Assembly (NCBI RefSeq): GCF_019024325.1
Contig: NZ_JAFNJS010000001.1
Coordinates: forward strand, 62,001 to 126,000
Direction: 5' to 3'
From: Falsiroseomonas tokyonensis
GTDB taxonomy: Bacteria; Pseudomonadota; Alphaproteobacteria; Acetobacterales; Acetobacteraceae
Length of the DNA: 64,000 nucleotides
A program made the translations under genes and the position numbers. Positions 2,016-63,019 of the stretch are shown in pieces; position 1 is the first letter of the stretch; each line of letters opens with the position of its first letter. Under the pieces are notes generated by a model, which saw nothing but the letters and a program-made list of their open reading frames with translations, made no database searches and was not told the DNA's origin.

Positions 2016-2052
2016 CGGGGACGGTTTCGGCCATGGACGGCGCGGGTGACTG

Positions 2053-2260
2053 CCAGGGGGCTTTGCCCCCCGGCACCCCCCACCAGGAGGCAGTGGCCTC
2101 CTGGACCACGGGACCTTGTGCAGGAAGGGAGAGGGGCCTGCGGGACCACCGAACATTCGGTCGCTACGGCCCCTCTCCCTTCCTGCACATGAATCGAAGG
2201 GATCCAAGGGGCCACTGCCCCTTGGCGGGAGGGTGCAGGGAGGGCGGAGCCCTCCTTGCA
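2053..2260. repeat. Structured intergenic repeat, copy A (quasi-palindrome with 29-nt core)
   Basis: About 208 bp lying 10 bp past the cfa stop. It consists of nested inverted repeats: a GGGGGC/GCCCCC hairpin at the left end; a CCAGGAGGC/GCCTCCTGG hairpin at 2083-2104; a perfect 21-bp inverted repeat at 2118-2138 and 2168-2188 starting GTGCAGGAAGGG; a CCAAGGGGC/GCCCCTTGG hairpin at 2204-2225; and a GGAGGGC-type end. The left arm also resembles the reverse complement of the right arm, so the whole is one large imperfect palindrome around the core 2139-2167. A second copy sits at 20815-21023. The rest of the dnaB-cfa gap (1950-2052) holds only the DnaA-box-like sites. Confidence 0.9.
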
Positions 2261-2270
2261 ATCAACCCGA

Positions 2271-3482
2271 TCACGCCATGGCCGAAGCCCGTTCCGTTTC
2301 CACCATGTAGTCCCGGGTCAGGGGCAGGGTGTCGATCCGGCGGGTGAGTTGGAGTTGCCAGTTGATGAGGCCGCCTTGGCGGAAGCTGGCTTCGCTGGCG
2401 GCCAGGTAGAATTCGAACATGCGGCAGAAGCGTTCGTCGTAGAGCGATTGGATGGCGTCCCGGTTGGCGGCGAAGCGGCGGCGCCATTCGCGAAGTGTCA
2501 GGGCGTAGTGCAGGCGCAGGATCTCGATATCGGTGGTGAGCAGGCCGCTGCGTTCCACCGCGGGCAGCACTTCGGACAGGGCCGGGGAATAGCCGCCGGG
2601 GAAGATGTATTTGGTGAGCCAGGGATTGGTGCTGCCGGGTCCGTCGCTGCGACCGATCGCGTGCACCAGGGCCACGCCATCCGGGCGCAGGGCCTGGCGG
2701 ATGGTGCGGAAGAAGGCGGTGTAGGTGGTGATGCCGACATGTTCGAACATGCCGACGGAGACGATCCGGTCCACTGGCCGGGTCCAGTCGCGGTAGTCCA
2801 TCAGTTCGAAGCGGCAGTGGTCGGAAAGCCCCGCTTCCTCGGCGCGCCGGCGGGCTTCGGCGTGTTGTTCCTGGGACAGGGTGATGCCGGTGACGCGGGC
2901 GCCGTGGTCGCGGGCGAGCGTCAGGGCCATGCCGCCCCAGCCGCAGCCGATATCGAGGATCTCGAGTCCCGGCCGGTCGAGGCGCAGTTTCGCGGCGATG
3001 TGGCGTTTCTTGGCCGCCTGGGCTTCCTCCAGGCTTTCCTGGCCGGTCGGGAAGTAGGCGCAGGAGTATTGCCGGTCCCGGTCCAGGAACAGGGCGTAGA
3101 GCCGGCCGTTCAGGTCGTAGTGGTGGGCGACGTTGCGGCGGGCACGGGCGGCGGGGTTGAACTGGTCGATCCGTCGCCGGGCGAGGCGCCATAGGGCGTG
3201 CAGCTGTTCGGCCGGGTGGGTGGCGCCGGGCGCCCAATTGACCATGAGGAGTTCGAGCAGGTCGAGCAGGCGGCCCTCCAGCGGCTCGATCTCCCCGTTC
3301 ATGTAGGATTCGCCGAAGGACAGGCCGGGATTGGTGATCAGGCGGCGCGCGGCGCGGCGGGTCAGGATGCGCATGCCGGCTTCTGGGCCGGCGCCGTCGC
3401 CATAGTGGCGGATGCGGCCATCGGGGTCGTGCACGGTCAGTCGCCCGTGGCGGATGGCGCGGGACAGCATGGCGTGCAGCAT
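2271..3482 (-). CDS. cfa: Cyclopropane-fatty-acyl-phospholipid synthase
   Basis: 403 aa, the usual size. It transfers a methylene from S-adenosylmethionine to cis double bonds of membrane phospholipid acyl chains. The SAM-binding motif is ILDIGCGWGGMAL near residue 172. Other family signatures are the NVAHHYDLNG segment, YSCAYFP, and FIFPGG(Y) as KYIFPGGYSP. The ATG at 3482 is chosen because AGGAGGGG lies 10 nt upstream; a further-upstream ATG at 3551 would add 23 residues without a binding site or family similarity. The repeat copy A lies directly downstream and may act in 3'-end formation. Confidence 0.93.
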   Translation of the reverse strand: MLHAMLSRAIRHGRLTVHDPDGRIRHYGDGAGPEAGMRILTRRAARRLITNPGLSFGESYMNGEIEPLEGRLLDLLELLMVNWAPGATHPAEQLHALWRLARRRIDQFNPAARARRNVAHHYDLNGRLYALFLDRDRQYSCAYFPTGQESLEEAQAAKKRHIAAKLRLDRPGLEILDIGCGWGGMALTLARDHGARVTGITLSQEQHAEARRRAEEAGLSDHCRFELMDYRDWTRPVDRIVSVGMFEHVGITTYTAFFRTIRQALRPDGVALVHAIGRSDGPGSTNPWLTKYIFPGGYSPALSEVLPAVERSGLLTTDIEILRLHYALTLREWRRRFAANRDAIQSLYDERFCRMFEFYLAASEASFRQGGLINWQLQLTRRIDTLPLTRDYMVETERASAMA

Positions 3483-12993: not shown

Positions 12994-13041
12994 AGCACTA
13001 TCCGATAACACTGAATTAGTGTTATCGGATTTCGTGCTTTA
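12991..13041. terminator. Palindromic hairpin at EamA 3' end
   Basis: TAAAGCAC at 12991 and GTGCTTTA ending at 13041 bracket a long palindrome, with inner arms ATCCGATAACACT and AGTGTTATCGGAT separated by GAATT. The EamA stop codon TAA is the outermost part of the left arm. It could terminate transcription of EamA and, on the other strand, read-through from the SDR gene. Confidence 0.7.
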
Positions 13042-20770: not shown

Positions 20771-20814
20771 CAGGCGAGGCGGGGATCGGGAGAGGGGTGG
20801 TCCCTGCTTGATTT

Positions 20815-21023
20815 GCAGGGGGGCCTTGCCCCCCTGCACCCCCCACCAGGAGGCAGTGGCCTCCTGGACCACGGGACCTTGTGCAGGAAGGGAGAGGGGC
20901 CGGAGGAAACGCATGTTCAGCGGTCCAGCTGGCCCCTCTCCCTTCCTGCACATGATTCGAAGGGTTCCAAGGGGCCACTGCCCCTTGGCGGGAGGGGTGC
21001 GGGGAGGGCAGCGCCCTCCCCGC
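20815..21023. repeat. Structured intergenic repeat, copy B (core inverted relative to copy A)
   Basis: About 209 bp with the same order of parts as the copy at 2053-2260: GGGGGGC/GCCCCCC hairpin, CCAGGAGGC/GCCTCCTGG hairpin, perfect 21-bp inverted repeat at 20881-20901 and 20931-20951, CCAAGGGGC/GCCCCTTGG hairpin at 20967-20988, and a final GGGAGGGC/GCCCTCCC hairpin. Outer arms match copy A in the same orientation almost base for base. The 29-nt core (20902-20930) instead matches the reverse complement of copy A's core, 20 of 29 bases. It fills most of the 324-bp gap between flanking genes. Confidence 0.9.
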
Positions 21024-21094
21024 GTATCACGCGGACCACCCCTCCCCGCCCTGCCTCCCTTTCACACCGCGCCCGGCCGGCGCATGCTGGCCGG

Positions 21095-25713: not shown

Positions 25714-25841
25714 AAGCCTGGGCGGTGCGGCCCAACTGCTGCGGCGGTTCGGGCCCCTCTGGCGCCGCGCGGCTTCCGGGCGGCGGGCGTGATGTCGAAC
25801 CGGCCACGCGGCCTGGCCGCATGACTCGGAAGGGGTTCGAG

Positions 25842-60295: not shown

Positions 60296-63019
60296 ATGCT
60301 GAGCCTCGGCGCCCTGAGCTTCGCCGCCCCCTGGCTGCTGCTGGCCCTGCCGGCGCTGCCGCTGCTCTGGTGGCTGCTGCGGGTCACGCCGCCGGCGCCG
60401 AAGCGCCAGGATTTCCCGGCGCTGCGCCTGCTGCAGGAAATGCCGGCGCCGGAGGAAACCCCCGCCCGCACGCCCTGGTGGCTGCTCGCCCTACGATTGG
60501 CCGCCGCGGCACTGATGATCTTCGGCCTCGCCCGGCCGATCTGGGGCCCGCCCGCCGGCGCCACCGGCCAGGGACCGCTGCTGGTGGTGATCGACGATGG
60601 CTGGGCCGCGGCCGCCGATTGGCCGGACCGCATCGCCGCCGCGGAGGCCGAGCTGGACGGCGCCGCGCGGGAGGGCCGCCGCACCGCCTTGCTGCTGACC
60701 GCGCCGCCCGCCTTGCCGGAGGCGCCGCGCATCACCGGGCTGATGCCGGCCGAGGAGCTGCGCGGAAGGCTGGTGGCGCTGCGCCCGAAACCCTGGGCGC
60801 CGGACCGGGCGGGGGCGCTGGCCGCGCTCGCCGGCTGGCGCGCGCAGCATTCCGGCCGTTTCGCCGCGCTCTATGTCGCGGACGGGCTGGAACATGCGGA
60901 GGGCGATGCCTTCACCCCCCTCGCCACCGCCCTGGCCGAGGGCGGCGCGCTGCTGGTCGCCCGCAGTGAGGGCCGCCCCACCCGCCTGCTGCCGCCGCCG
61001 CGGGCGGAGGCGGAGCAGCTGGTCGTCGGCCTGCACACCACGCCCCTGCCAGTGCCCACCGAAGTCGCCGTGCTGGCCCGCACCGGCGATGGCCGCACCC
61101 TGGCCCGCGCCGTGCTGCCGGTGCCGGCCGGCGCGACGGCGGCCGAGGCCGCCCTGCCGCTGCCGCTCGAAATCCGCAACCAGGTGGTGCGGCTCGACCT
61201 CGATGGCGTCGCCGGCGCCAATGCCAGCGTGCTGCTGGACGAGCGCTTTCGGCGGCGCCCGGTCGGGCTGATCGCCGGGGGCGAGGCCACGGCCGCCGAT
61301 GTGCCGCTGATAGGCGAGCTTTTTTATCTGGACCGCGCCCTGTCGCCCCATGCCGAACTCCGCCGCGGCAGCGTTTCCGAACTGCTCGCGCGGCGGCTTT
61401 CCGTGCTGGTGCTGGCGGACCGGCCGGTGGAGCCGGGGCGGGAGCGGGACGAACTCACCGCCTGGATCGAGGCCGGCGGCACGCTGGTCCGCTTCGCCGG
61501 GCCGCGGCTAGCGGAGCGGCCGGACGGGCTGCTGCCGGTGCCGCTGCGCGCCGGCGAACGCCAGCTCGGCGGCGCCCTGTCCTGGGAACGGCCGCAGACG
61601 CTGGCGCCCTTCCCCGAGGGCTCGCCCTTCCAGGGCCTGGTGCCGACGCCGGAAGTCACCGTGGAGCGCCAGGTGCTGGCCGAACCCTCCGCCCAACTGT
61701 CGGGCCGCACCTGGGCGCGGCTTGCGGATGGCACGCCGCTGGTGACCTGGGAGACGCGCGGGGCGGGGCGGATCGTGATGTTCCACGTCACCGCCAATGC
61801 CGAATGGTCGTCCCTGCCGCTCTCGGGGCTTTTCGTCGACATGCTGCGCCGGCTGGTGGCGCTGTCCGCCGGGGTCGGCGGCGCGGATGGGGAGGCGCCG
61901 CTGGCCCCCATGGAAACCCTCGACGGTTTCGGCCGCCTCGGCCCGCCGCAGCCGGGCGCGCAGCCTATCGCGGCCTCCCGCGTCGAAAGCGAGGTTCCCT
62001 CCCCGCGGCACCCGCCGGGCTGGTATGGCACGGGCACCAGCGGGGATGGCGCGCATCGCCGGGCGCTGAACCTCGGCGCCGGCATTTCGGCGCCGCGACT
62101 CGCGGCGGCGCCGCCTTCCGGCACCGCCACGCGGGCGATCGGCGGCGTGCCGGCGGAGCGTGACCTCGGGCCCTGGCTGCTGGCGGCGGCGATGCTGCTG
62201 CTGGTGGTGGACCTGCTGGTGTCACTGGGCCTGCGCGGCGTTCTGGCACGGCCCCGCGCGGTGGCTTCCGCCCTGCTGGTGGGGCTGCTGTGGGGCGGCC
62301 CCGCCTTCGCCCAGGAAGGCAGCGCGGCGCTGGCGACGCGGCTGGCCTATGTGGTGACCGGCGATGCGCAGGTGGATGAGGTGAGCCGCGCCGGCCTGGT
62401 GGGCCTGTCCGACTTCGTCAACCGGCGCACCGCCGCGGCCCTGGCGGACCCGACGCCGGTGGTGCCCGGGCAGGACGATCTTTCCTTCTTTCCGCTGCTC
62501 TACTGGCCGGTCACGGGCGATGCGCCGCAGCCGGGCGCGCCGGCCGTGGCCGCGCTGAACGGCTTCATGCGCAATGGCGGGATCATCCTGTTCGACACGC
62601 GCGACGAGGGCTCGGGAGAGGGATTTTCCCCCGGCGCCCGCGCCGCACTGCGCCGCGTGACGCGGGACCTGACGGTGCCGCCCCTGGCGCCGGTGCCGGA
62701 GGACCATGTGCTGAAGCGCGCCTTCTACCTGCTGGCCGACCTGCCCGGCCGCTTCGCCGGCGGCACGGTCTGGGTGGCGCGCGACCAGGACCGGGCGAAT
62801 GACAGCGTCAGCCCCGTCATCATCGGCGGGCATGACTGGGCGGCGGCCTGGGCGATCGATGCCCGCGGCAACAACCCCTATGCGGCGATCCCCGGCGGCA
62901 CGCGGCAGCGCACGCTGGCCTATCGCTTCGGCACCAACCTCGTGATGTACGCCCTGACCGGCAACTATAAGGGCGACCAGGTGCATGTGCCCGCCATCCT
63001 CGAAAGGCTCGGCAATTGA
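60296..63019 (+). CDS. DUF4159 domain-containing membrane protein (BatA-like N-terminus)
   Basis: 907 aa from ATG 60296. The N-terminus has the BatA-type double membrane span (FAAPWLLLALPALPLLWWLLRV and LALRLAAAALMIFGLARPIWGPP), followed by an inactive VWA-like region. Two more spans come near residues 625-665 and the DUF4159 domain (LAYVVTGDAQVDEVSRAGLVGLSDFVNRRT to the TNLVMYALTGNYKGDQVH end) is C-terminal. It is 10 bp behind DUF58. The operon is thought to act in envelope homeostasis; direct function is unknown. Confidence 0.9.
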   Translation: MLSLGALSFAAPWLLLALPALPLLWWLLRVTPPAPKRQDFPALRLLQEMPAPEETPARTPWWLLALRLAAAALMIFGLARPIWGPPAGATGQGPLLVVIDDGWAAAADWPDRIAAAEAELDGAAREGRRTALLLTAPPALPEAPRITGLMPAEELRGRLVALRPKPWAPDRAGALAALAGWRAQHSGRFAALYVADGLEHAEGDAFTPLATALAEGGALLVARSEGRPTRLLPPPRAEAEQLVVGLHTTPLPVPTEVAVLARTGDGRTLARAVLPVPAGATAAEAALPLPLEIRNQVVRLDLDGVAGANASVLLDERFRRRPVGLIAGGEATAADVPLIGELFYLDRALSPHAELRRGSVSELLARRLSVLVLADRPVEPGRERDELTAWIEAGGTLVRFAGPRLAERPDGLLPVPLRAGERQLGGALSWERPQTLAPFPEGSPFQGLVPTPEVTVERQVLAEPSAQLSGRTWARLADGTPLVTWETRGAGRIVMFHVTANAEWSSLPLSGLFVDMLRRLVALSAGVGGADGEAPLAPMETLDGFGRLGPPQPGAQPIAASRVESEVPSPRHPPGWYGTGTSGDGAHRRALNLGAGISAPRLAAAPPSGTATRAIGGVPAERDLGPWLLAAAMLLLVVDLLVSLGLRGVLARPRAVASALLVGLLWGGPAFAQEGSAALATRLAYVVTGDAQVDEVSRAGLVGLSDFVNRRTAAALADPTPVVPGQDDLSFFPLLYWPVTGDAPQPGAPAVAALNGFMRNGGIILFDTRDEGSGEGFSPGARAALRRVTRDLTVPPLAPVPEDHVLKRAFYLLADLPGRFAGGTVWVARDQDRANDSVSPVIIGGHDWAAAWAIDARGNNPYAAIPGGTRQRTLAYRFGTNLVMYALTGNYKGDQVHVPAILERLGN

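Follow-up and report, generated by a model that had tools for sequence, protein, structure and literature searches.

REP and BIME sequences and REPINs are dispersed extragenic palindromes, modular in build and found mostly behind genes; rhizobial RIME and the double-hairpin elements of mitochondria are also dispersed multi-hairpin repeats, and are likened to the present element by description and not by sequence. Miniature inverted-repeat elements (MITEs) are non-coding, carry terminal inverted repeats and have empty sites in relatives. Quasipalindrome template switching, which is a mutation process and not an element, homogenises arms, inverts the spacer and makes reverse-complement copies; it is reported to homogenise the arms of inverted repeats and invert their spacers in yeast (PMC8604942), and to be able to create as well as mend hairpins (PMC8794818). 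In E. coli, a 246-bp interrupted palindrome is reported to give rise to inverted chromosome duplications when SbcCD and RecA are missing (PMC3315005).

The element described here, from Falsiroseomonas tokyonensis, resembles REP/BIME sequences and REPINs in all the properties just named, but it is about 210 bp long and has five hairpins, whereas REPs measure 20-40 bp (PMC3733652), and its mirrored flanks set it apart from them. The REP-associated transposase of the REPIN/RAYT system was not found in the genus of the element: Y1_Tnp (PF01797) had no match in nine of nine genomes, with matches in 5 of 14 in the control. From MITEs the element differs in being nearly all palindrome, modular and invertible, and it may differ in target duplication, as direct similarity of its flanks does not exceed chance. 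Template switching would here act on a dispersed repeat family. The E. coli palindrome is similar in size and also duplicates its flanks in inverted orientation, but its duplications are large and belong to sbcCD recA mutants (PMC3315005), whereas those found here span tens of bases and are fixed in wild genomes. The element family appears to be undescribed in the open-access literature searched, dispersed palindromes and template switching being already known; what appears new is a family-wide five-hairpin element with mirrored flanks.

The window analysed is the whole 64,000-nucleotide stretch of contig NZ_JAFNJS010000001.1 between positions 62,001 and 126,000. An initial annotation had reported a large quasi-palindrome in two copies, and both are present (Table 1), copy 1 lying 10 bp from the stop codon (2271) of a minus-strand cfa-like gene and copy 2 lying 44 bp past the stop codon (20770) of a maleate-isomerase-like gene, as had been described. 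The other neighbour of copy 1 is the start (1949) of a dnaB-like gene, and copy 2 is followed by a CoA-binding-like gene; all of these gene names are our reading of the translations. Each copy holds the five hairpins that had been noted, in the order H1, CACCCCC, H2, central hairpin (long, with a variable loop), H4, a GGGGGTG-like spacer and H5, and its two halves are complementary to each other. Because H1 and H5, and likewise H2 and H4, are each a hairpin and also mutually complementary, two folds are open to the unit, five separate hairpins or a single giant one. The giant hairpin of the initial annotation was indeed the minimum-energy fold of copy 1 (-164.2 kcal/mol, z -12.45), and the minimum-energy fold of copy 2 leaves H1 and H5 separate (-171.6 kcal/mol, z -11.31); in RNA folding, none of 200 shuffles was equally stable for either copy. 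The reported length of 208 bp holds for the core, but the true repeat is longer, since the core is bordered by an inverted repeat common to the copies (roughly GCGCGGGTGRTTTGCA) and, further out, by a locus-specific one. Elsewhere in the window, a 13-bp perfect hairpin at 13000-13030, AT-rich for the genome and unrelated to the element, occupies a gap between convergent genes.

Table 1. Parts of the two element copies (window positions), and loci of a Clostridia MAG that carry a two-hairpin module
Feature	Position or loci	Strand	Basis
Copy 1, core element	2053..2260	+	sequence, own-genome BLASTN, RNA fold
Copy 1, hairpin H1	2056..2070	.	sequence
Copy 1, hairpin H2, 9-bp perfect stem	2083..2104	.	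stem pairing
Copy 1, central long hairpin, variable loop	2117..2189	.	fold, stem pairing
Copy 1, hairpin H4, 9-bp perfect stem	2204..2225	.	stem pairing
Copy 1, hairpin H5	2239..2255	.	sequence
Copy 1, left shared terminal inverted repeat	2040..2053	.	pooled flanks
Copy 1, right shared terminal inverted repeat	2258..2269	.	pooled flanks
Copy 1, left locus-specific arm, mirrors 2276-2286 (11 bp perfect, weaker case)	2026..2036	.	
Copy 1, right locus-specific arm, within cfa-like coding end	2276..2286	.	
Copy 2, core element	20815..21023	+	sequence, own-genome BLASTN, RNA fold
Copy 2, hairpin H1	20814..20838	.	
Copy 2, hairpin H2	20846..20867	.	stem pairing
Copy 2, central long hairpin, variable loop	20880..20952	.	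fold, stem pairing
Copy 2, hairpin H4	20967..20988	.	stem pairing
Copy 2, hairpin H5	20999..21023	.	
Copy 2, left locus-specific arm, mirrors 21033-21044 (12 bp perfect)	20792..20803	.	
Copy 2, right locus-specific arm	21033..21044	.	
Clostridia MAG, two-hairpin module	L094, L095, L096, L104, L105, L113, L115, L116, L128, L145, L159, L164, L167		

The repeat is not confined to these two sites; the initial annotation had named such confinement as speaking against its proposal. BLASTN against the own genome gave 50 matches, many of them on either strand owing to the palindromic build of the unit, and these were collapsed by hand to at least 31 distinct places (a lower bound, with 40 of 48 candidates scored). 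A covariance model, likewise among the checks suggested at the outset, was built from the 31 copies and produced at least 26 matches in the own genome. It also matched 37 of 120 genomes (own included) and 33 of 102 genera of the family. BLASTN matches were obtained in 18 of 39 genomes, including the own genome and all 14 congeners, and none were obtained in plasmids and phages. When named genomes were scanned with an 18-base motif, 55 of the 80 loci listed held a covariance-model match (hand count), those with a match including loci from Roseomonas, Rhodopila, Falsiroseomonas, Rubritepida and other Acetobacteraceae/Rhodospirillales records. Forty copies fetched from five other genera keep the five-hairpin plan in genus-specific sequence. 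The number of copies (at least 31), together with orthologous sites that are empty in congeners, supports a dispersed element, as had been suspected, and the sequence supports regarding it as non-autonomous because it has no coding gene. At the Rfam gathering score the element had no match in the window, and sub-threshold matches around copy 1, mostly to microRNA hairpins, were set aside; the only window match was a terC RNA (RF03067) at 25741-25807 on the + strand (46 bits, gathering score 39.9).

Pairing between the arms was assessed in a 31-row alignment, in which 98.6% of 1143 cells were paired and changes on both sides occurred at 19 of 37 pairs. The covariation score was 0.387, relative to 0.144 in shuffles that leave relatedness among the copies in place (0 of 500 as high), and sliding by 1 to 3 columns lowered it to between 0.057 and 0.105. 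Additional kinds of pair were no more numerous than in shuffles (38 versus 36.2; 105 of 500). In the central stem of the 31 copies, 104 cells were changed on both sides, two on one side only, and four were unpaired. More G-U intermediates would be expected from ordinary RNA covariation. When the longest central helix of each fold was counted with its loop side, G-U pairs numbered 18 of 796 in the own copies and 36 of 1120 in the forty copies from elsewhere; their near-absence applies to the core stem and less so to the loop side, and near the loop they are not rare. The loci of one orthologous site (group A) are 89.5-93.8% identical in genomes G003, G005 and G012, and a single stem position there reads C-G, A-T and T-A across the three genomes, and between G006 and G008 five adjacent stem positions differ, every one compensated (both by eye). 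Both arms thus change together, as they do in template switching.

For the flanks, the left flank was aligned to the reverse complement of the right flank, either of the same copy or of different copies. Inverted similarity was 27.4 within a copy versus 13.6 between copies at the edge, and 21.9 versus 12.1 (shuffled) from 20 nt outside, neither value being reached in 20,000 shuffles. A search for target-site duplications, as initially suggested, had a divided outcome: direct flank similarity stayed at background (11.6 versus 11.2, 3929 of 20,000; 9.3 versus 8.9, 3357 of 20,000) in a test that leaves room for duplications of 3-5 bp, and GCTAG at L055 and TAG at L046 were seen by eye on both sides. 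The 40 copies of the five other genera, when pooled, gave an inverted signal of 22.0 versus 11.6 (0 of 20,000); taken singly, genomes G133, G097 and G102 were clear, G106 was weaker (3 to 229 of 20,000, depending on offset) and G074 (n = 4) failed to reach significance at most offsets (828 to 1693 of 20,000). Terminal inverted repeats, as in MITEs, are visible by eye in the pooled flanks.

Empty orthologous sites in relatives, which had also been proposed as a check, were found as 36 site-genome pairs, picked by hand from six sites. Their inverted-flank score was at background (8.89 versus 8.82); the 31 filled sites, scored over the same span, gave 18.7 versus 9.3. The means of the empty sites were 9.6 at L052, 7.7 at L046, 8.6 at L055, 8.4 at L043, 10.0 at copy 2 and 11.7 at copy 1. 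The idea that the element lands in pre-existing hairpins drew no support from the empty sites and was discarded.

At individual sites, the direction of mirroring could be read from relatives. The two genes flanking L052 are 15 nt apart in G002. To the left of the element, G000 and G001 have the conserved coding end of the gene upstream, and an inverted copy of that end lies beyond the element, ahead of the next gene's start region. In G000 the two agree in 44 of 58 columns, some of which reflect an ancestral match near the start codon. Other versions occur at this site in G007 and G010. At L046, where the left arm is the new one, a mirror of the conserved start region of a permease-like gene follows the upstream stop codon (37 of 49 columns, partly ancestral), and at L043, whose empty orthologues have different downstream genes, a conserved coding end (RNPWG-stop) is mirrored in 71 of 91 columns. 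Judged from these comparisons, one arm appears clearly to be a reverse-complement copy of neighbouring DNA at L052, and the same reading is supported at L046 and L043. The arms of L055 match in 34 of 46 columns; G002, which lacks the element here, has part of the right arm, and the other relatives shown do not. With GCTAG on both sides as well, events at L055 could have run in either order. At copy 1, the mirror of the cfa-like coding end is 11 bp long, and two of the three empty sites also exceed the 95% level of cross comparisons (13 and 15 versus 12), which weakens the case there. At copy 2, both arms would have come with or after the element, because the two genes abut at this site in G007. 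L038 was not used, the orthologues shown having other downstream genes or no element-like site.

Orientation and internal composition also differ between genomes. At L046, G000 and G001 share their flanks and the element is inverted between them, and G007 and G009 have the same plan with different central hairpins. In group A, where L073 yielded no aligned sequence, the element of G005 is inverted relative to those of G012 and G003. Both L046 (G000 versus G001) and group A (G005 versus G012) thus display the inversion between arms that marks template switching. In a further set (group B, from which a fourth row, G012 L081, was left out as non-orthologous on account of its other flanks), the central hairpin of G005 differs from that of G003 and G013, and the outer hairpins are nearly identical. 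At the dnaB site, the elements of G000 and G001 are opposite in orientation, with one neighbouring gene differing, and in G005, G012 and G013 the long central hairpin is missing from the scaffold of hairpins. At L034, L038 and L050, element hairpins or spacers contain inserted small perfect hairpins, among them TCGGACRCATGYGTCCGA, a motif absent from the window. The element is accordingly extragenic, multi-hairpin and a mosaic of modules, in the manner of BIMEs.

Every one of the 31 copies has the 3' end of a gene no more than 67 nt away (crude ORF calls; L059 by eye). Convergent genes flank 10 copies and tandem genes flank 21; divergent genes flank none, compared with 10 divergent among 50 neighbouring gene pairs of the window. 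L046 and L055 are situated inside what we read, from the flanking proteins, as ABC-transporter operons. No T run follows an element hairpin at either window copy; a terminator-like site was absent at copy 1, and copy 2 had two short matches, neither from an element hairpin. A transcript-stabilising 3' structure, one of the roles suggested in the initial annotation, would be plausible.

Strong covariation, very stable folds and copies always at the 3' end of a gene would be expected of a functional RNA (3' UTR or sRNA) whose stems are under compensatory selection and whose flanks evolved pairing that lengthens the stem. This explanation is nevertheless quite unlikely, as the core stem is nearly free of one-sided and G-U states, the hairpin sequences vary freely among copies and genera, the sequence on which such selection would have had to act is missing from the empty sites, and the new arm at L052 mirrors coding DNA. 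Mirroring of conserved coding sequence at L052 and L046 also argues against a classical MITE that is mobilised in trans by a transposase and leaves short direct duplications, with the locus-specific arms forming a variable outer stem of the element. Terminal inverted repeats common to the copies, their dispersal with empty sites, and the short repeats on both sides of L055 and L046 would suit such an element, but direct flank similarity no higher than chance and the lack of a match to Y1_Tnp, the sole transposase family searched, in nine genomes of the genus make it unlikely. At sites other than L052 and L046, the locus-specific arms could belong to the element as a variable outer stem.

A bidirectional transcription terminator, duplicated passively, would account for positions behind stop codons, with 10 of 31 copies between convergent genes. 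It is highly improbable: the window copies lack the combination of element hairpin and T run, the mirrored flanks and flips would be left unexplained, and the element can be no absolute terminator because L046 and L055 sit within putative ABC-transporter operons.

The reading that we favour, at a probability of roughly 0.55, is that of a non-autonomous, REP/BIME-like dispersed palindrome that is kept perfect and extended by fold-back template-switch synthesis, and is tolerated at the 3' ends of genes. The palindrome would fold when the locus becomes single-stranded, and a DNA 3' end would then switch to the opposite arm, by quasipalindrome template switching or by fold-back priming. Synthesis from there would rewrite one arm from the other, could invert the unit and, on running out into the flank, would leave behind a mirror copy of the neighbouring DNA. 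Paired changes, inversion, mirrored flanks and module exchange would all follow if the 3' end copies the opposite arm and runs on. Selection would spare copies behind stop codons and not those in promoters, and the very stable structure of the transcript may protect or punctuate mRNA 3' ends. As to spread to new sites, our guess is that a hairpin strand might be captured during repair.

Absence of SbcCD was considered as a licence for palindromes and put aside as suggestive at most, because weak relatives are present. Canonical SbcD (TIGR00619) was over the cut-off in none of 14 genomes (nine of them of the genus), with weak matches in 10 of 14; in the control, 8 of 14 were over the cut-off and 13 of 14 matched, the missing one being Caulobacter by elimination. 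The weak match of the own genome (L371:1303-6862) is an Mre11/SbcD-like nuclease gene (36 bits, cut-off 77.65) that adjoins a 1158-aa ORF with a weak RecF match, a pair which we take to be YhaO/YhaN-like.

Covariation is usually taken as proof of a functional RNA. The present element combines overwhelming covariation with marks of DNA-level arm copying, and therefore provides a natural test of template switching against RNA selection as the maker of perfect stems. It also suggests a testable way in which palindromic repeats could grow and be maintained in bacteria, and calls for caution when RNAs are discovered by structure.

A lead from another phylum came from a Clostridia MAG (about 40% GC), which holds a half-element consisting of an H4-like hairpin, a spacer and an H5-like hairpin. 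Among the matches listed, the second hairpin follows at 14 of 15 motif places, in 13 loci (Table 1) with a GC content of 39-42%, the property by which mis-binning was judged. Aligned with copy L055 of the own genome, the half-element agrees in 52 of 59 columns (score 44), relative to a maximum of 33, a next-highest score of 28 and a median of 9 for 2761 random pieces of other loci, which may include element fragments. Because the motif scan had selected the first hairpin, only the spacer, the tail and the second hairpin are independent evidence. The covariance model had no match at any of the 13 loci, and the half-element was found in no viral contig by exact pattern and in no plasmid. A self-templating palindrome that has no transposase of its own, spreads and mends itself through fold-back synthesis, leaves a mirrored flank instead of a direct duplication and shares modules between phyla is possible but rather doubtful, and we put it forward tentatively. 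In a Desulfovibrionaceae MAG (L160:3068-3085), an H2-like hairpin was observed with the same GGAATCCC tail.
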